This document shows positions 51,476 through 64,000 of a stretch of 64,000 nt of DNA, piece after piece (within the stretch, counting starts at the first letter, position 1; each line of letters begins with the position of its first letter). Source of the stretch: Kribbella pratensis. GTDB lineage: Bacteria; Actinomycetota; Actinomycetes; Propionibacteriales; Kribbellaceae. The notes beneath the pieces were generated by a model. That model saw nothing but the letters and a program-made list of their open reading frames with translations. It had not been told where the DNA came from and made no database searches. The DNA lies in assembly GCF_004366075.1 (NCBI RefSeq), contig NZ_SODU01000004.1:678839-742838 (forward strand). Reading direction: 5' to 3'. A program made the position numbers and the translations under genes.

Positions 51476-52462
51476 GTGGCGGTCAGCATGTCCGACGTGG
51501 CCCGGCACGCGGGCGTCTCGCAGCGGACCGTCTCGAACGTGGTGAACAACTACGTCCACGTCTCCCCCGCGACCCGGGCACGGGTCCAGGCCAGCCTCGA
51601 CGCCCTCGGCTACCGCCCGAACACGGCTGCCCGCAGGCTGCGCAGCGGCCGGACCGGCACCGTGACGCTGGCCGTCCCGACCTTTCGCGAGCGGTACTTC
51701 GCAGACCTCGCCGAGGCGGTCGTTTCCGCCGCGAGACAGCGCTCCACGACCGTTCTCGTCGAGACCACCGGCGGGCGCCACGAGACCGAACTCGAGCTGC
51801 TCCGGGGCGGCGGCGAGATCCTCACCGACGGCGTGATCATGAGTGCGGTCTCCCTCGGCCGCACCGATCAGCGCAGTACGCACCCGGTGGTCCTGATCGG
51901 CGACCGCGAGCCGGGCAGCGCGATCGACCACGTCGGCATCAAGAACCGCGAGGCCGCCCAGGCCGCCGTCACCCATCTCCTCGACACCGGCCGCCGGCGG
52001 ATCCTCCTGCTCGGCGCGAAGCACGGACCCAGGCGCTCGTACCAACTGCGCAGGCAGGGCTACCAGGCGGCCTTGAAGAAATACGGAATCGAACCCGAGC
52101 CGGCGCTGGTCGTCGAGTGCGACTGGACTACCGCGGCGGCTGCCGACGCCGTCACCGCGCTGCTCGCCGAGAAAGCGCTCCCCGACGGGGTCTTCGCGAT
52201 GAACGATTCCGCCGCGCTCGGTGCCCTCCGCGCCCTGGTCCGCGCCGGAATCGACGTACCGGGTCAGGTCTCGGTGATCGGCTTCGACGACATCGTCGAG
52301 GCGGGTCTGTCCACACCGTCGCTCAGCACGGTCGCACCGCTGCTCGACGACATCGCGAGCATGGCGCTCGACCTGCTCGAGGAACAGCTGGACGAGGATC
52401 ACGTCCCGCAGCACCGGATGGCCGGCTACGAGCTCCGCGTCCGGGAGAGCACCGGCCGCTGA
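51476..52462 (+). CDS. LacI-family transcriptional regulator
   Basis: 328 residues from a GTG with AAGGAG seven bases upstream. HTH SMSDVARHAGVSQRTVSNVV, hinge YRPNTAARRLRSGRTGTVTL, and a sensor domain with GQVSVIGFDDIVEAGLSTPS. It lies just before the dehydrogenase operon at 52523, whose promoter carries a palindrome at 52497; a local repressor is the natural reading. Confidence 0.92.
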   Translation: MAVSMSDVARHAGVSQRTVSNVVNNYVHVSPATRARVQASLDALGYRPNTAARRLRSGRTGTVTLAVPTFRERYFADLAEAVVSAARQRSTTVLVETTGGRHETELELLRGGGEILTDGVIMSAVSLGRTDQRSTHPVVLIGDREPGSAIDHVGIKNREAAQAAVTHLLDTGRRRILLLGAKHGPRRSYQLRRQGYQAALKKYGIEPEPALVVECDWTTAAAADAVTALLAEKALPDGVFAMNDSAALGALRALVRAGIDVPGQVSVIGFDDIVEAGLSTPSLSTVAPLLDDIASMALDLLEEQLDEDHVPQHRMAGYELRVRESTGR

Positions 52463-52484
52463 CACAACGCTCACCGGCAACCCC

Positions 52485-52514
52485 TTGTGGGCAGGATTTG
52501 CTACGTAGTAAATT
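52485..52514 (+). promoter_or_regulatory. predicted promoter, probably leaderless transcript
   Basis: TTGTGG at 52485, 18-base spacer, TAAATT at 52509. Only eight bases separate the -10 from ATG 52523, and no ribosome binding site precedes that ATG, so transcription likely starts at or next to the start codon. Confidence 0.55.
52497..52512. promoter_or_regulatory. operator palindrome in the dehydrogenase promoter
   Basis: TTTGCTACGTAGTAAA, palindromic apart from one position in each half (core CTACGTAG). It lies between -35 and -10, the position for repression by the LacI encoded just upstream. Confidence 0.6.
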
Positions 52515-52522
52515 CCGGCAGC

Positions 52523-53524
52523 ATGACGCGTACCGCCCTCGCCCCCAAGTTCACCGGGGCCGGCACCATCGAGTTCGCGGACCACGAGTACCCGGACCCC
52601 GGACCCGGGCAGCTCCTCCTCGCCGTCCAGGCCAACGCCCTCTGCGGCACCGACCGCCACCAGTACTACGACGGCTCGTCAGTCGTCCCCGGACACGAAG
52701 CCGCCGGCACCGTCCTGCAGACCGGGGACGGCACCACCACACCCGTCGGCACCCGCGGCGCCGTCTTCCTGATGGACTTCTGCGGCGAATGCCGAAGCTG
52801 CAAGTACGACGCGACCAACCAGTGCCTCGCCAAGCGTGCCGACATGGGCTTCACCCAGGACGGCGGCTACGGCCCCTACGAACTGGTCCACGAGTCCAAC
52901 TTCTTCCCGATCACCGACGACATCGAAATCGGCAACGCGACGATGCTGCTCGACGTGATGGGCACCAGCAGCCACGCCCTCGGTCGCGCAGCGCTGGTCC
53001 GGCAGGACGTCGAGAGCGTCTACATCGCCGGCGCCGGACCGATCGGGCTCGGGCTGACCGTGATGAGCAAGCTGAAGTACGACGTACCGGTGTACATCTC
53101 CGACTTCTCCCGCTGGCGGCTCGAGTTCGCGGAGTCGTTCGGCGCGATCCCGTTGCTCGCCGACGATCTCACCGCGGCCGGCCACCCTGACCTCGCGTTC
53201 GACGCGTCCGGCAAGGAGTCCGCCCGCCGCGCGGCGCTCGACATCCTCAGCCCGCGCGGCGCCCTGATATGCGTCGGCCACGGCGAATCGGTCACGCTCG
53301 ACGTGTCCGGCGACCTGATCAGCCCCGAGCGTGCTGTCCTCGGCAGCGAGTACTTCCGGTACGACGAGATGCCCGGCAACCTCGCGCTCCTCCAGGATCA
53401 TCAGGAGCTCATCGGACGCGTGATCAGCCACCGCTTCCCGGTCGCGGACATCGCCGAGGCGTTCCGCCTGTTCATGGCCGGCGAAACGGGCAAGGTCGTA
53501 GTCACCCAGGACGGTGCCTCGTGA
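52523..53524 (+). CDS. zinc-dependent alcohol/polyol dehydrogenase (MDR)
   Basis: 333 residues. GroES-like catalytic domain with NALCGTDRHQYYDGSSVVPG and HEAAGTV (zinc ligands Cys, His, Glu), structural-zinc Cys cluster (FCGECRSCKYDATNQC), and a Rossmann part SVYIAGAGPIGLGLTVM. It probably oxidises a sugar or polyol with NAD(P). The stop overlaps the GTG of the next gene by four bases (GTGA). No ribosome binding site, consistent with a leaderless start. Confidence 0.88.
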   Translation: MTRTALAPKFTGAGTIEFADHEYPDPGPGQLLLAVQANALCGTDRHQYYDGSSVVPGHEAAGTVLQTGDGTTTPVGTRGAVFLMDFCGECRSCKYDATNQCLAKRADMGFTQDGGYGPYELVHESNFFPITDDIEIGNATMLLDVMGTSSHALGRAALVRQDVESVYIAGAGPIGLGLTVMSKLKYDVPVYISDFSRWRLEFAESFGAIPLLADDLTAAGHPDLAFDASGKESARRAALDILSPRGALICVGHGESVTLDVSGDLISPERAVLGSEYFRYDEMPGNLALLQDHQELIGRVISHRFPVADIAEAFRLFMAGETGKVVVTQDGAS

Positions 53525-54486
53525 GGGTCGCGGTGGTCGGCGCCGGCGGCTGGGGCGAGCACCACGCGCGCATCTTCTCCCGGCGCGAGGACACCGACCT
53601 GGTGGCGGTCTGCGGCCGCACACCGGCCCGCACCCAGGCACGGGCCGCGATGTACGGCGCGACGCCGTACACCGATCTCGACGAGATGCTGCGCACCGAG
53701 CGCCCCGAACTCATCACGGTGTGCCTGCCGAACGAGGACCACTACGACGTCACGCTGAAGCTCGTGCGTACCGGCGTACCGCTGCTGGTCGAGAAGCCGC
53801 TCGTCTTCGACCTCGCCGAGGCGGACACGCTAATCTCCGAAGCCGGCGACCGGTTCTTCGCGATCAACTTCAACCACCGGTACGCCGAACCGGTACGACG
53901 CGCGAAGGCCCTGACCGACGCGGGCGAACTGGGCGACCTGATCTTCGCAACCTGGCGCTTCGGCGGCGAAGCGAACTACGGCCGGTCGCCGCACGCCAAT
54001 CTGATCGAGACCCAGTGCCACGGCTTCGACATGCTCGAACACCTCGTCGGCCCGATCTCCGCGGTCTCCGCGCACCTGACCGACAAGACGTACGGCGCGT
54101 TCAGCACGCTCGCGCTCGCGGTCGACTTCGAGAACCGCGCGGTCGGCACGATGCTCGGCACCTACGACTCGTCGTACGCCTACCCCGACACGCAACGCAT
54201 CGAGATCAACGGCACGAAAGGCCGCCTCGTCATCCACGACACCGTCCGCGCGCTGACGTTCTCCAAGGCCGGCGACCCGGTCGAGCAGCGCTGGCATTCG
54301 ACGTACTTCGACGACGAGGCCCGCAACTTCGGGGGCACCTTCGACCGCCACGTCGACGCGCTGCTGACCGCACTCCGCGCCGGCGACCAACCACCCGTCC
54401 ACGCCCGCGCCGGCCGACGGGCCCTCGCCCTAGCCCACGCCGCCATCCAATCCCACGAGACCGGCCGCCGGGTCAGAGTCACCTGA
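53521..54486 (+). CDS. Gfo/Idh/MocA family oxidoreductase
   Basis: 321 residues from a GTG overlapping the previous stop. NAD loop VAVVGAGGWGEHHARIF, family Lys in LLVEKPLVFD, and the second domain with NLIETQCHGFDMLEHLVGP, which includes the expected His and Asp. It is coupled with the MDR dehydrogenase, suggesting two-step oxidation of a cyclitol or sugar under control of the LacI protein at 51476. Confidence 0.9.
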   Translation: MRVAVVGAGGWGEHHARIFSRREDTDLVAVCGRTPARTQARAAMYGATPYTDLDEMLRTERPELITVCLPNEDHYDVTLKLVRTGVPLLVEKPLVFDLAEADTLISEAGDRFFAINFNHRYAEPVRRAKALTDAGELGDLIFATWRFGGEANYGRSPHANLIETQCHGFDMLEHLVGPISAVSAHLTDKTYGAFSTLALAVDFENRAVGTMLGTYDSSYAYPDTQRIEINGTKGRLVIHDTVRALTFSKAGDPVEQRWHSTYFDDEARNFGGTFDRHVDALLTALRAGDQPPVHARAGRRALALAHAAIQSHETGRRVRVT

Positions 54487-58932: not shown

Positions 58933-59760
58933 CTAACTTGACCGGGCTTCGATCTCTCGCATGAGGGTGGTGAGCTCGCGGGCGCGGCCGATCATGGCGG
59001 GGTCGACCATGCGCCCGTCGGGGAGCACGATCACGCCCCCGTGGGCGACGTCCGCCTTCTCGACGGCGGCCAGCAGCGCCTCCGCCTCGGCGACCTGGAG
59101 AGGCGACGGGGTGAACGCCTCGACGATCGTGGCGAGCTGCCGCGGGTGGATCGCCGTACGGCCGACGAATCCGAGCGCGCGGCCTTCCTCCGACGTACGC
59201 CGGAGACCGTCCAGGTCCTGCACGTTCGGGTAGACCGACATCATCGGGGCGCCGAGGCCCGCGGCCCGTGACGCCGACACGAGCCGGCCGCGCGCCCAGG
59301 CAAGACCCTCAGGGCCGTCCACCCCGAGCGCACTGGACAGGTCCGCCTCACCGAGCGCGACCGCGACGACGCGCGGGTCCGCGGTGGCGATCTCGAACGC
59401 GCGCTCGAGACCCAGCGGCGACTCGATCAGCGCGGTGATCCTTGCCGACGGCACCTTTTCCAGGACCGCCTGCACATCGGCCGCACTCTCGACCTTCGGC
59501 AACCGGATCCGCACCCCGGGTACGGCGGAGATCGCCGCCAGGTCGTCCGCGATCCACGGCGTGCCGAGCGCATTCACGCGGACCTCCACCGGCCCGTGGG
59601 AGTTCACCGCGATCCAGGCCACCGCCCAGCCGCGTGCGTCCGCCTTGTCGGCGACCGGTACCGCGTCCTCGAGATCGAACACCACCAGATCGGGGCCCGC
59701 GGCAACAGCCTTCGCGAACCGGTCCGGCCGGTTGGCCGGAACATACAGTGCCGTCAGCAC
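58933..59760 (-). CDS. HpcH/HpaI-family CoA ester lyase (CitE-like)
   Basis: 275 residues from a GTG just past the stop of the CaiB gene. TIM barrel with LTALYVPANRPDRFAKAVAA, DLVVFDLEDAVPVADKADAR (metal Asp/Glu), and ITALIESPLGLERAFEIATA. Members cleave citramalyl-CoA, malyl-CoA or similar. Paired with a CoA-transferase it would activate and split a C4-C6 hydroxy acid. Confidence 0.88.
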   Translation of the reverse strand: MLTALYVPANRPDRFAKAVAAGPDLVVFDLEDAVPVADKADARGWAVAWIAVNSHGPVEVRVNALGTPWIADDLAAISAVPGVRIRLPKVESAADVQAVLEKVPSARITALIESPLGLERAFEIATADPRVVAVALGEADLSSALGVDGPEGLAWARGRLVSASRAAGLGAPMMSVYPNVQDLDGLRRTSEEGRALGFVGRTAIHPRQLATIVEAFTPSPLQVAEAEALLAAVEKADVAHGGVIVLPDGRMVDPAMIGRARELTTLMREIEARSS

Positions 59761-59761
59761 T

Positions 59762-60949
59762 TCACACCACTCCAGCCGCGCGCAGGGCCGCCAGCTGATC
59801 CGGCGTGACACCGATCTCGGCGAGCACCTCGTCGGTGTTCGCGCCGTGCGGCCGGCCCGCCCACTTGATCGCCCCCGGCGACTCCGACAGCCGGAACAGC
59901 ACGTTCTGCATCTGCACCGGTCCGTCGAGCTCGTCGTCGTCCACGCTGACGATCGTCCCGAGCGCGGCGTACTGCGGATCGGTCATGATGCCGCGGATGT
60001 CGTGCACCGGCCCGACCGCGGCCTCGGCCTTCTCGAATTCCTCCATCACGAGCTCCAGCGGCCGCGCCGCGATCCACGAGCCGACCGCGTCGTCGAGTTC
60101 GTCGGCGTGCTGGGCCCGCTCCCGCCCGGTCGCGAACCACGGCTGCGCGACCAGGTCCGGGCGCCCGACCAGGGTCACCACCCGCTCGGCGATGCTCTGC
60201 GAGCTCGTCGACACGGCCACCCATCGGCCGTCAAGAGTCTTGTACACGTTCCGCGGGGCGTTGTTCGACGACCGGTTCCCGAGCCGCGGCTGCACGTACC
60301 CGGTCTGCTGGTACGCCGTGATGCCGCCGCCGAGCATCATCAGGATCGGTTCGATGATCGCCATGTCGATCACCTGCCCCGCCCCGGACCTATCGCGCTC
60401 GCGCAGCGCCACCAGGACGGCGTACGCCGTGGCGAGCGCGGTGATCCCGTCCGCGAGTCCGAACGGCGGCAGTGTCGGCGGCCCGTCCGGCTCGCCCGTG
60501 ACCGCCGCGAATCCACTCATCGCCTCGGCCAATGAGCCGAACCCGGGACGCCGCGACCACGGCCCGACCTGCCCGAACGCCGTCACCCGCGCGATCACCA
60601 GCCGCGGGTTCGCCTCGAGCAACACGTCGGGCCCGAGCCCCCACCGCTCCAGCGTGCCGGGCCGGAAGTTCTCGACGAGCACATCATGCGACTTGACCAG
60701 ATCGAGGAACACGTCCCGGCCGCGGGACAGGTCCAGCGTCGCGAGCCGCTTGTTCCGGCCGAGGGTCTTGAACCAGAGCCCGACGCCGTCCTTCGAGGCG
60801 CCGTGCGTGCGCGCGGCATCGGGCCGGGACGGGTGCTCGATCTTCGTGACGTCGGCGCCGAAGTCGCCGAGGAAGGTCGCCGCCAGCGGTCCCGCGAACA
60901 GCGTCGCCGCCTCCAGCACCTTCACCCCGTCGAGCGGAGCAGTTCTCAT
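59762..60949 (-). CDS. CaiB/BaiF-family CoA-transferase
   Basis: 395 residues. Start LDGVKVLEAATLFAGPLAAT, DFGADVTKIEHPSRPDAART, and the catalytic-type Asp region (ENFRPGTLERWGLGPD in family register). It moves CoA between carboxylic acids without covalent acyl exchange. ATG overlaps the stop of the upstream fusion gene by four bases (ATGA). Together with the CitE-like lyase it suggests a dicarboxylate- or branched-acid pathway. Confidence 0.9.
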   Translation of the reverse strand: MRTAPLDGVKVLEAATLFAGPLAATFLGDFGADVTKIEHPSRPDAARTHGASKDGVGLWFKTLGRNKRLATLDLSRGRDVFLDLVKSHDVLVENFRPGTLERWGLGPDVLLEANPRLVIARVTAFGQVGPWSRRPGFGSLAEAMSGFAAVTGEPDGPPTLPPFGLADGITALATAYAVLVALRERDRSGAGQVIDMAIIEPILMMLGGGITAYQQTGYVQPRLGNRSSNNAPRNVYKTLDGRWVAVSTSSQSIAERVVTLVGRPDLVAQPWFATGRERAQHADELDDAVGSWIAARPLELVMEEFEKAEAAVGPVHDIRGIMTDPQYAALGTIVSVDDDELDGPVQMQNVLFRLSESPGAIKWAGRPHGANTDEVLAEIGVTPDQLAALRAAGVV

Positions 60950-62934
60950 CCGGCGCACCTGAAGCCGATGTTCTCCGAGCGGTCGAGCCCGCCGCCGGTC
61001 AGCACCAGCTTGAAGCTGACGTCCGGCTCCTGCGGCCCGCCGTCGGCGTACCAGTCGGAGCCCTCGGCAACATAGTGCGAACCGCCCTTGAGAATGCAGA
61101 ACCGGCTGCGGCCGTCGCGGTGCTCGCTCTCGGTCAGGTTCCACACCAGCGGCTCGCGCCGGACGAATCCCTCTTCGAGAGCGGCGATCTGCCACTCGTC
61201 CTCGGTGGGCAGCCGGCCGCCCCGCCACGCGGCGTACGCCCGCGCGTCCGGCAGGTCGACATACGTCACCGGCTGATCCTCGGTCCCGGGAACGGGAGCA
61301 CCGTCGATCCAGTGCTGGAGGAACCGGTTCGCGATCAGCGGCCGATAGCCGGTCGCCTGCACAAAGGCCAAGTACTCCGCGTTGGTCACCTCAGCAACAG
61401 CCACCGCGACGCCTGGCAACGAGACCTCACGCTCGACCGTCTGCATGTCGTGCAGGCGAGGCGGCAGCGGCTTCCATTCCTCGACGTACGGCGCGGTGTC
61501 GTACAGCCCGGTCTCGCGTCGCCGGTGCCGCACGGTCAACGTCCGCTCCCCGGCCGGTACGTCGACCGTCGGGCCGATGTTCGCGTCACCGGACACCGGC
61601 TGCGGTGCGATCCGCTCGGCCGGACGCATCGGGAACGCGGACTCGTTGACATGCGCGCGCGGCATCGTGCCCAAGCGGCGGGCCGTCGCGCGGCACGAGG
61701 CGCCGGCCGTCGCGCCGACCCGGACGATCCCGGCCACGCCGCGCCCCGGCACGGTCAGGTGTACGCCGTCGTCGTCCGCGGTGATCGGCACACCCGAGGT
61801 CACGTCGTACCAGTCGCCGACCTGGTCCTCGGACCGCAGCACGATGCCGTCGAAGTCCTCGTCGTGGCGGTTGATCAGCGTCCAGAACGTGATGTCGGCC
61901 AGGTCGAACCGGGACCCGTAGACGCCGTGGTCGCGGGCCTTCTCCGGGATCTCCGGCGTCAGCTGGATCCAGTCGCCGTTGATCAGCACCGGCGCGAACG
62001 CCCGCTGGGCGGCGACCATCCGGCGCAGCGTCGCGCGGTCGCGGGCGTTCCAGCCGACCCACGCCGAGAACACCGACTCCCAGACCAGCATGCCGACGCC
62101 GTTCACCCAGGCGGACTGCAGCTCGTCGCTGTGGTCACGATTCCACCGGCGGGTGTGGTGCATCATGTGCCGGCGCTCGAACAGGTGCGCCCGCAGCACG
62201 CCCGGCGCGTGCGTGTCGGCGAACCACTGCGCCCATGACAGCGCGTGGTCGCTGATCCTTGCCATCGGCAACCGTGACTCGCCCTCCAGCGCGATCGCCG
62301 GGTTCGCCTGCCGGATCGCGCGGGTGAACTTCGGGTCGCCCTCCTTCAGGGTGTCCAGGAACACGCCGTCGACCGCGTAGTCCGTGACCAGGGTCGCGAA
62401 CTCGTCGGCGTCCGAGCGGTCCGCCCGGCGGGTGCCGACGTCCCACGGGTTGTAGTCGAAGAAGACCTTGAGCCCGAGCCGGTGCAGGTCGTCGATCAGC
62501 TCCCGCAGGCCGGGGACGTCGCGGTAGAAGTCGAACTGGTTGCGGTCGTCGATCCCGATCACCGGGTACGCGTGCCAGAGCACGATCGCGTCGTACCCGC
62601 CGAACTCGGTGACCCCGTGCTCGACGAACTTCTCCGGCGTGAACTTCCCGGTCTCGACGTCGTAGAGCAGGTCGTCCCAGAGCCAGACGAGCGCCACCGA
62701 GTACGCCGTCTGGGTCCACTCGCGACCGGGCTCGTCGTAGTGCGATCCGTCGTACCGGGTCCGTTCGATGGCGCCGAACCGCCATTCGGCCAGTTTCGCG
62801 CGCCACCGCGGCAGGTCGGCCGGGTCCTCCGGCGCGCCGAGGATCTTGGCGTCGTCCAGGAAGGACAGGTCGGTCCCGAGCCCCACATCGACCCGGGCAG
62901 GTCGATCGATGGGCCGCGGTTCGAGCGGATTCAC
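60946..62934 (-). CDS. glycosidase-like TIM barrel fused to a SUMF1/FGE-like domain
   Basis: 662 residues from a GTG overlapping the ribokinase stop. The N-terminal 400 residues look like a TIM-barrel glycosidase (LRELIDDLHRLGLKVFFDYN, TDYAVDGVFLDTLKEG, AIALEGESRLPMARIS) with acidic residues where a nucleophile and acid/base would be. A beta-sandwich linker follows. The last 160 residues match a SUMF1 fold (VTNAEYLAFVQATGYRPLIA, GRLPTEDEWQIAALEEG, CILKGGSHYVAEGSDWY, ENIGFRCAG). No signal peptide. The Cys pair used for formylglycine formation is not evident, so the domain may be structural or sugar-binding. Confidence 0.75.
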   Translation of the reverse strand: MNPLEPRPIDRPARVDVGLGTDLSFLDDAKILGAPEDPADLPRWRAKLAEWRFGAIERTRYDGSHYDEPGREWTQTAYSVALVWLWDDLLYDVETGKFTPEKFVEHGVTEFGGYDAIVLWHAYPVIGIDDRNQFDFYRDVPGLRELIDDLHRLGLKVFFDYNPWDVGTRRADRSDADEFATLVTDYAVDGVFLDTLKEGDPKFTRAIRQANPAIALEGESRLPMARISDHALSWAQWFADTHAPGVLRAHLFERRHMMHHTRRWNRDHSDELQSAWVNGVGMLVWESVFSAWVGWNARDRATLRRMVAAQRAFAPVLINGDWIQLTPEIPEKARDHGVYGSRFDLADITFWTLINRHDEDFDGIVLRSEDQVGDWYDVTSGVPITADDDGVHLTVPGRGVAGIVRVGATAGASCRATARRLGTMPRAHVNESAFPMRPAERIAPQPVSGDANIGPTVDVPAGERTLTVRHRRRETGLYDTAPYVEEWKPLPPRLHDMQTVEREVSLPGVAVAVAEVTNAEYLAFVQATGYRPLIANRFLQHWIDGAPVPGTEDQPVTYVDLPDARAYAAWRGGRLPTEDEWQIAALEEGFVRREPLVWNLTESEHRDGRSRFCILKGGSHYVAEGSDWYADGGPQEPDVSFKLVLTGGGLDRSENIGFRCAG

Positions 62935-63833
62935 AGGTACACCTCCGCATAACGCGCGTCGATTGCATCCCCGTGAGGCACCGAGGAAATCGCCCCCGCG
63001 GCCTGAACACTCAATGAAGCAGCAACGTTAGCGCGTCGGACCGCGTTCGTCAGGTCGCTTGCCGTGATCGCGTCGCTCGCTGACACGGCAGCCAACGTGG
63101 CGGCCAGCACCCCGCAGAACGTGTCTCCGGCCGCCGTGGTGTCGACCACGTCCACCGGTACGCCGGGAACCGTGATCTCGCGGTCACCGTTCAGGTCGCG
63201 CGTCAGGATCACCGCGCCGGCGCCGCCGAGAGTGACGACCGCGGCCGGCACCTTCTTCAGCAGCGCGGACCGGTCCGCCCCGGCGATCGCCTCGGCCTCG
63301 GTCTCGTTCACCACCAGCAGATCGACCTCGGCCAGCAGTTCGTCCGGCAGCTCGGCCGCCGGCGCCGCGTTCAGGATGAAGTAGGACGAGGCGGCCCCCG
63401 CGGCTGCGACGGTGCGGAACGGGATCTCCAATTGGGAAAGCACGACTTTCGCCTGTCCGACAGCGGCCACAGCGTCGGCCGACAGCGTCAGCTCGCCGTT
63501 GGCGCCGGGCGCGACCACGATCGAGTTCTCGCCGCTCTCCTCGACCGTGATGATCGCCGTACCGGTCGGGGCCTCGCTGGTCGTCGCCAGCGTCAGATCT
63601 ACGCCCTCGAGCGCCGCCCGCAGCAGCGCACCGCCTTCGTCGTCGCCCAGGGCGACGACCATCGCGGTCCGCGCACCGGCACGCGCCGACGCCACCGCCT
63701 GGTTCGCGCCCTTGCCTCCCGGGCCCCGCGTCATGGCTCCCGCCAGGACCGTTTCCCCCGGCCGTGGGATCCGCTGGACAGGCAGCACCAGGTCCACGTT
63801 CGCACTACCGACAACCACAACCTCAGGCTCCAC
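62931..63833 (-). CDS. rbsK: ribokinase (PfkB family)
   Basis: 300 residues from a GTG. N-terminal strand VVVGSANVDLVLPVQRIPRP, substrate loop RGPGGKGANQAVASARAGA, and the C-terminal phosphate loop VDTTAAGDTFCGVLAATLAA with catalytic Asp. It phosphorylates ribose or a related sugar or nucleoside. Coupled to the fusion gene by GTGA and overlapping the upstream hydrolase by three bases. Ribose specificity is the usual call and not proven. Confidence 0.85.
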   Translation of the reverse strand: MEPEVVVVGSANVDLVLPVQRIPRPGETVLAGAMTRGPGGKGANQAVASARAGARTAMVVALGDDEGGALLRAALEGVDLTLATTSEAPTGTAIITVEESGENSIVVAPGANGELTLSADAVAAVGQAKVVLSQLEIPFRTVAAAGAASSYFILNAAPAAELPDELLAEVDLLVVNETEAEAIAGADRSALLKKVPAAVVTLGGAGAVILTRDLNGDREITVPGVPVDVVDTTAAGDTFCGVLAATLAAVSASDAITASDLTNAVRRANVAASLSVQAAGAISSVPHGDAIDARYAEVYL

Positions 63834-64000
63834 CCCGGGCCACCTCCACAGTCCGCCGCGCCAGCTCGTCGATCGCGATCTGGTTCATCCCCGGGAGGCT
63901 GGTGGCCACCCGATTGTCCAGTGGTGCAGACCACTCTGCCGGAATCCCCCGCGTCGCGCCAAAAACCCCGCCCACCGTAGCGCCGGCCGAGTCGGTGTCC
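63823..64000 (-). CDS. ADP-ribosylglycohydrolase, C-terminal part (cut by window edge)
   Basis: The visible 58 codons read DTDSAGATVGGVFGATRGIP to LARRTVEVARGGA, with the DTDSAGA metal-binding motif that closes the ADP-ribosylglycohydrolase active site. The start is outside the window. It overlaps the ribokinase start by 11 bases, and release of ADP-ribose followed by ribokinase fits a nucleoside/ADP-ribose salvage role. Confidence 0.75.
   Translation of the reverse strand, partial: DTDSAGATVGGVFGATRGIPAEWSAPLDNRVATSLPGMNQIAIDELARRTVEVARGGA

Follow-up and report, generated by a model that had tools for sequence, protein, structure and literature searches.

Glycoside hydrolases of family GH13 (clan GH-H) have the nucleophile Asp at strand beta4 of a (beta/alpha)8 barrel and the acid/base Glu at beta5, with an Arg two places before the nucleophile and a third catalytic Asp after beta7. 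Nucleophile Asp residues on beta4 are also found in GH129 and GH29 barrels, and to our knowledge none of these barrels carries a SUMF1 domain. In active formylglycine-generating enzymes (FGEs), two catalytic cysteines follow a GGS motif; SUMF2 (pFGE), the human FGE paralogue, has no catalytic Cys pair and stands alone. The EgtB, SenA and OvsA synthases have a C-terminal SUMF1-fold domain behind a different partner, an iron-binding DinB-type domain that in EgtB and SenA carries a three-His iron site. This study concerns a gene in a 64,000-nucleotide stretch (hereafter the window) of the 8.39 Mb genome of Kribbella pratensis (contig NZ_SODU01000004.1, positions 678,839 to 742,838), the product of which joins a predicted GH13-like barrel to a SUMF1-fold domain.

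An earlier note on this DNA had read the protein as a glycosidase-like barrel fused to a SUMF1-type domain, a build for which its author knew of no characterised protein. The fusion was borne out by the Pfam family PF03781, an AlphaFold2 model, fold matches to GH13 and SUMF2 structures, and comparison of 80 loci. No characterised family with this build was found in Pfam, NCBIfam or searches of Protein Data Bank (PDB) sequences and folds, and no paper describing the protein or its operon was found among the titles and abstract openings of open-licence PubMed Central papers. As far as homologous sequences tell, the build is a trait of a large family that spans at least three phyla and is not special to K. 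pratensis. Our reading, to which we assign a probability of roughly 0.6, is that the protein is a cytoplasmic glycoside hydrolase-like enzyme of an undescribed family, in which the SUMF1-fold part would bind or shape the substrate site and would not oxidise, and which would serve a pathway for an acid-bearing glycoside. The family is large, coherent and widespread, and no characterised member was found; if the barrel is active, the protein would define a new family of glycosidases and extend the SUMF1 fold to a new use.

Results and Discussion

Both parts of the protein are encoded in one conserved open frame

The gene has a GTG start and a TGA stop and encodes 662 amino acids without an internal stop. 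It was compared with relatives from 80 GTDB loci, which were the best of at least 589 pattern stretches and so are biased to close relatives. Since the barrel and the SUMF1-fold part stood in one open frame in 80/80 loci, a frameshift or chimaera was ruled out as the origin of the build. The ratio of nonsynonymous to synonymous substitution rates (dN/dS) in seven Kribbella pairs was 0.11-0.23 for the N-terminal part and 0.15-0.27 for the C-terminal part, which places each of them under purifying selection. The two parts are about equally conserved, with a mean column identity of 52% in the C-terminal and 54% in the N-terminal part. Separately, 83 sequences from three phyla (the window protein, the 80 loci, one Sphingopyxis and one Spirosoma protein) were aligned, and 67 columns of this alignment were invariant.

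The whole chain was modelled with AlphaFold2 from 50 aligned sequences, namely the window protein and 49 of the 80 loci; two derived alignments comprised 49 of these rows, with L114 left out. The mean predicted local distance difference test score (pLDDT) was 88.9 and the predicted template modelling score (pTM) was 0.90, a value that argues for a fixed arrangement of the two domains in the model.

The N-terminal part is predicted to be a GH13-like barrel

In the model, the barrel strands (in our own numbering) were residues 79-84, 116-120, 156-161, 190-193, 215-219, 232-236, 259-261 and 281-285, and were followed by a beta-domain at about residues 337-408, as in GH13 enzymes of the neopullulanase/TVA II type (1jf5, 1j0j). 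GH13 alpha-amylases ranked first in a Foldseek search (E 6.3e-11, TM-score 0.34 by query length), and VIA-align matched the barrel to 1jf5 with Z 19.2 (3.8 Å over 333 residues). GH129 (8rzk, Z 16.8 in VIA-align) and GH29 barrels were lower-ranked fold matches, and the protein had no Pfam match to these families; GlgE was also among the fold matches. When the profile of the N-terminal part was searched against PDB sequences, four weak matches were obtained, none of them significant; the best was a designed protein (E 0.0026), and judged by their names only the phage tail spikes (E 0.4 and 1.2) might be glycosidases.

Fifteen charged or polar residues of the barrel were invariant in all 83 sequences (D115, D129, R131, Q133, D165, D175, D189, D194, E219, E253, R255, H256, R263, R298 and D299), several of them directly following strand ends. 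His256 was the sole His among the invariant columns, E217 was replaced by Gln in both outgroups (Sphingopyxis and Spirosoma), and H259 and H260 were variable. Asp194 lay directly after beta4 and Glu219 at the end of beta5, positions that in the predicted fold agree with the clan GH-H dyad, and a trace of GH13 region I was also present. Our proposal is that the amylase-type barrel acts on a glycosidic bond, which it would most likely cleave with retention, Asp194 serving as nucleophile and Glu219 as acid/base.

The C-terminal part is predicted to fold as SUMF1 but has no catalytic Cys pair

PF03781 (FGE-sulfatase) was the only Pfam family in the window protein (residues 497-585, E 3.9e-19, 69.7 bits with a cut-off of 23.3) and was matched by all 14 family members scanned (E up to 1; best 1.1e-20). 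Two other Pfam families appeared at chance level, each in one of these members (E 0.21 and 0.24). Within the whole model, the C-terminal part matched SUMF2 (1y4j_B) with Z 16.2 (3.0 Å over 173 residues). It also adopted the SUMF1 fold when folded alone, with Z 16.1 to 1y4j_B (3.2 Å over 175 residues) and 15.1-15.7 to FGEs; SUMF2 and FGE structures are tied as its best match in these predicted folds. Further fold matches of the part folded alone were SenA (Z up to 15.5), EgtB (up to 14.7) and PvdO (14.5). SUMF2 was also the best match of a profile search of the PDB; a single-sequence search put CalU17 first.

The Cys pair after the GGS motif, which could not be seen in the window protein by the author of the earlier note, was absent in 83/83 sequences, and an active FGE was rejected on this ground. 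Nine of the 83 had one Cys within residues 616-641, and in two rows (L101 and L160) two Cys stood close together at the extreme C-terminus, away from the FGE position. Identity with EgtB or SenA was also rejected: the respective models scored 46.1 of 360 and 49 of 420 bits, far under their cut-offs, there was no DinB-type domain, the N-terminal part being a predicted barrel, and only one His was invariant. That single invariant His and the variation of H259 and H260 likewise led to the rejection of a three-His iron site.

In contrast to SUMF2, the C-terminal part is fused to a barrel and is shorter in its middle. The residues E474, E604, D607, R611, W628 and Y629 were invariant in 83/83 sequences; because E604 and D607 face a Pro and an Ala of SUMF2 (alignment read by eye), they look family-specific. 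In the loop formed by residues 471-495, 13 of the 25 positions were invariant in the 81 actinobacterial rows, and residues 474-488 had pLDDT below 50. A loop that is conserved yet modelled with low confidence is what might be expected of a lid, and this one is a possible mobile lid. We propose that the SUMF1-fold domain carries out no formylglycine or iron chemistry, that it is held in a fixed position on the barrel, and that it may help to bind or shape the substrate site through E604, D607, R611, W628 and Y629, perhaps with a contribution from the loop, at least in actinobacteria.

Evidence against the proposed function, and alternative explanations

Several observations weigh against a glycoside hydrolase-like function. 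No glycoside hydrolase model of Pfam was matched by the protein, and PF00128 (GH13) was matched by none of the 14 members scanned (E up to 1). The Foldseek TM-scores to GH13 structures were modest (0.29-0.37 by query length). Comparison of the N-terminal part by hhalign with six GH13 proteins encoded in the K. pratensis genome recovered only beta3 in local mode (23 columns, E 0.0012, probability 19.8%) and nothing in global mode. If Asp194 is the nucleophile, residue 192 is a Phe and not the Arg of GH13, and no Asp was seen after beta7, where counting of the strands would put Arg262-Arg263; the protein is therefore not a GH13 member by sequence. Finally, of the loop at residues 471-495 only E474 was retained in both non-actinobacterial relatives, and a role as a lid would thus be at best actinobacterial.

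GH13-type barrels also catalyse transglycosidase, isomerase and phosphorylase reactions, and the protein might be a GH13-superfamily-like non-hydrolase of one of these kinds, acting on an imported or intracellular sugar. The match to GlgE is consistent with this explanation, and the proposed dyad alone does not separate hydrolysis from transfer. However, the operon consists of importer genes and enzymes of breakdown families, and the reduced gene set of Nocardiopsis coralli (described below) fits breakdown better than synthesis; we regard a non-hydrolase as unlikely.

Alternatively, the SUMF1-fold part could be the catalytic half, an O2-using oxidase or an enzyme resembling the sulfoxide synthases, with a barrel that only binds substrate. 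The weak matches to the SenA and EgtB models would agree with this, as would the fold match to PvdO, a SUMF1 fold without the Cys pair to which an oxidation is assigned. Against it stand the missing Cys pair, the single invariant His and the distance of the EgtB and SenA scores from their cut-offs; moreover, a glycosidase-type barrel takes the place of the iron-binding DinB-type domain of EgtB. This explanation appears improbable to us. A non-enzymatic sugar-binding or regulatory protein, in which a dead barrel is joined to a lectin-like domain, recalls the use of the SUMF1 fold, which is a C-type-lectin fold, for binding only in TvpA-like proteins and Mtd, both of which were among the fold matches of the C-terminal part (2y3c and 1yu0-1yu3), but the invariance of fifteen charged or polar barrel residues across three phyla makes it very improbable.

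The build occurs in at least three phyla

When 84,980 species genomes were scanned, at least 567 stretches were confirmed, a number that may exceed that of the genes, since one gene may hold both search patterns. Among the matches listed, the ten nearest named relatives were all from Kribbella (82-95% identity). In a sample of the order, both parts were matched in 48 of 293 genomes (the source genome, 37 others of the genus and 10 further genomes) and two more matched in the SUMF1 part only; no genome of the same genus was among the 20 unmatched rows listed. Matches over both parts were found in 20/394 genomes of a class sample, the other matches listed being to the SUMF1 part only. A match to the N-terminal part without the SUMF1 part was seen in none of these 48 order genomes and 20 class genomes, and in none of the 80 loci. 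In a phylum sample that did not include the genomes positive in the class sample, an alignment search with the N-terminal part, with at most four candidates scored per genome, found only the source genome (1/396). Taken at face value, this result suggests a patchy distribution within the phylum. Phage relatives were not found.

Outside the actinobacteria, the full build was present in plasmid records of the alphaproteobacterium Sphingopyxis sp. FD7 (34% identity) and the bacteroidete Spirosoma sp. KNUC1025 (32%), which brings the phyla to at least three. Both records annotate the relative as 'SUMF1/EgtB/PvdO family nonheme iron enzyme', a name for which the sequences provide no support. The Spirosoma protein has an N-terminal stretch resembling a signal peptide (by eye), so this enzyme may be exported. 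No export signal was evident when the N-terminus of the window protein was read by eye, in agreement with the earlier note.

The gene lies in a conserved operon with importer and breakdown-family genes

The GTG start of the gene overlaps the stop of the kinase gene by four bases (GTGA) and its stop overlaps the start of the CaiB gene (ATGA); because of these overlaps the three genes are very likely co-translated. The usual order around the 80 loci, with members named by Pfam, was LacI, two ATP-binding cassette (ABC) permeases, a binding protein, two ADP-ribosylglycohydrolase-fold enzymes (ARH1 and ARH2), a PfkB kinase, the two-domain gene, CaiB and a CitE-like lyase. The placement of the gene in an operon agrees with the earlier note.

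Operon members were counted as tblastn matches of at least 50 bits on the strand of the gene, anywhere in the locus, a criterion that an additional LacI or ABC gene might also satisfy. Among the 71 loci for which the upstream sequence was complete, the permeases, binding protein and ARH2 were matched in 71/71, LacI and ARH1 in 70/71 and the kinase in 62/71, leaving nine without a kinase match. CaiB and CitE were matched in 70 of the 71 loci in which the downstream sequence reached 4.5 kb or more. N. coralli had the permeases, binding protein, ARH2 and two-domain gene, and no match for LacI, ARH1, CaiB, CitE or the kinase. The TDDT motif of ARH1 was kept in 76/76 sequences, as was its second D-x-D-S/T motif, and ARH2 had an EDDD motif and the second motif in 78/79 each; with both metal motifs kept, ARH1 and ARH2 look able to bind metals.

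Glycosidase-family genes also adjoin the two-domain gene outside the actinobacteria. In Sphingopyxis its neighbours are a ribokinase-like gene on one side and, on the other, a GH127-family gene that is followed by CaiB; kinase, two-domain gene and CaiB thus recur, and the furanosidase-type partner differs (ARH fold versus GH127). The Spirosoma neighbours include GH28, PTE-family and beta-helix proteins. ARH-fold and GH127 enzymes both act on 1,2-cis furanosides, for which reason such a bond is suspected in the substrate.

The gene, its predicted fold, its conservation, and the presence and order of the operon genes are established. Catalysis, residue roles, the order of steps and the class of substrate we infer, each chemical step from the names of the families. 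In actinobacteria, the ABC transporter would import the compound and the ARH-fold enzymes and the barrel enzyme would attack its glycosidic bonds in the cytoplasm. The PfkB kinase, where present, would take up the released sugar, and CaiB and the CitE-like lyase would take up the freed acid by coenzyme A (CoA) activation and C-C cleavage. A more specific proposal, which we put forward as tentative and rather doubtful, is a new family of glycoside hydrolases in which the active site of the amylase-type barrel is built in part from a Cys-less FGE fold. Such a protein would be the key enzyme in an undescribed pathway by which an acid-bearing 1,2-cis furanoside conjugate is imported and then opened by ARH-fold enzymes (GH127 in proteobacteria), its acid being burned via CoA transfer and a CitE-type lyase. 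The constancy of the operon, with its furanosidase-type enzymes, kinase, CoA-transferase and C-C lyase, points to a natural glycoside that was absent from the titles and abstract openings searched, and leaves a short list of proteins that could be used in the search for it.

Three more specific substrates were considered and not chosen. The aceric acid of rhamnogalacturonan-II was suggested by the only NCBIfam match of the Sphingopyxis GH127 protein, an aceric acid hydrolase, but the score of 83.4 bits with a cut-off of 950 indicates superfamily kinship only. Ribosides rest only on the ribokinase-like and ADP-ribosylglycohydrolase-fold neighbours, and the kinase is missing from 9/71 loci. For malate- or citramalate-type acids, suggested by CaiB and CitE, the scores were well under the curated cut-offs.

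Table 1. Positions in the window of the two-domain protein, its parts and the genes beside it.
Feature	Position	Strand	Basis or remark
Two-domain protein (662 aa plus stop), GTG start	60946..62934	minus	Open reading frame, Pfam, AlphaFold2, comparison of loci
N-terminal part, residues 1-440, GH13-like (beta/alpha)8 barrel and beta-domain	61615..62934	minus	Predicted fold; no significant Pfam or PDB sequence match
Asp194 after beta4, proposed nucleophile	62353..62355	minus	Invariant 83/83
Glu219 at end of beta5, proposed acid/base	62278..62280	minus	Invariant 83/83
C-terminal part, residues 450-662, SUMF1/FGE fold without catalytic Cys pair	60949..61587	minus	Pfam, predicted fold, alignment
Loop residues 471-495, possible mobile lid	61450..61524	minus	Conservation and pLDDT
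PfkB-family kinase, ribokinase-like; 233 bits to TIGR02152, under its cut-off of 299.65	62931..63833	minus	
ARH2, 3' end (second ADP-ribosylglycohydrolase-fold gene); remainder beyond the window	63823..64000	minus	
CaiB/CoA-transferase family III; start chosen by ATGA overlap	59762..60949	minus	
HpcH/HpaI/CitE-like C-C lyase; RipC 166.9 of 375 bits, CitE 148.7 of 443.4; start chosen by position after CaiB stop	58933..59760	minus	
Flavin adenine dinucleotide (FAD) oxidoreductase, CrtO-like, 101 of 1000 bits	57331..58923	minus	On the same strand in only 10/80 loci

Additional genes were observed at some of the loci. Just past the end of the window in the source genome (L033, 9978-12425), genes for a PhoD-like phosphatase and an F5/8 type C domain protein on the opposite strand split the operon between ARH1 and ARH2; a PhoD match was placed alike in L049, L050, L051 and L057, whereas L052-L056 and L058, the remaining Kribbella loci, had none so placed. 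Seven of the 80 loci have room for an extra gene between the two-domain gene and CaiB. In one of them (L125, 11946-14075) the extra gene encodes a putative esterase that has a beta-propeller repeat and, by eye, a secreted-looking N-terminus, a hint that the substrate contains an ester; the others (L098, L106, L108, L124, L126 and L127) have a gap of about 2.2 kb, and no Pfam family was matched by the open reading frames tried in L098 and L108. Beside the Sphingopyxis homologue (L159, 8498-15959), the other strand encodes an isocitrate lyase/phosphoenolpyruvate mutase-type protein, dehydrogenases and a TonB receptor, which may supply the lower steps of the same pathway. Elsewhere in the window (51476-54486, plus strand), a second LacI regulator is followed by a zinc alcohol dehydrogenase-type gene and a Gfo/Idh/MocA oxidoreductase-like open reading frame (by eye), which form a separate sugar operon.

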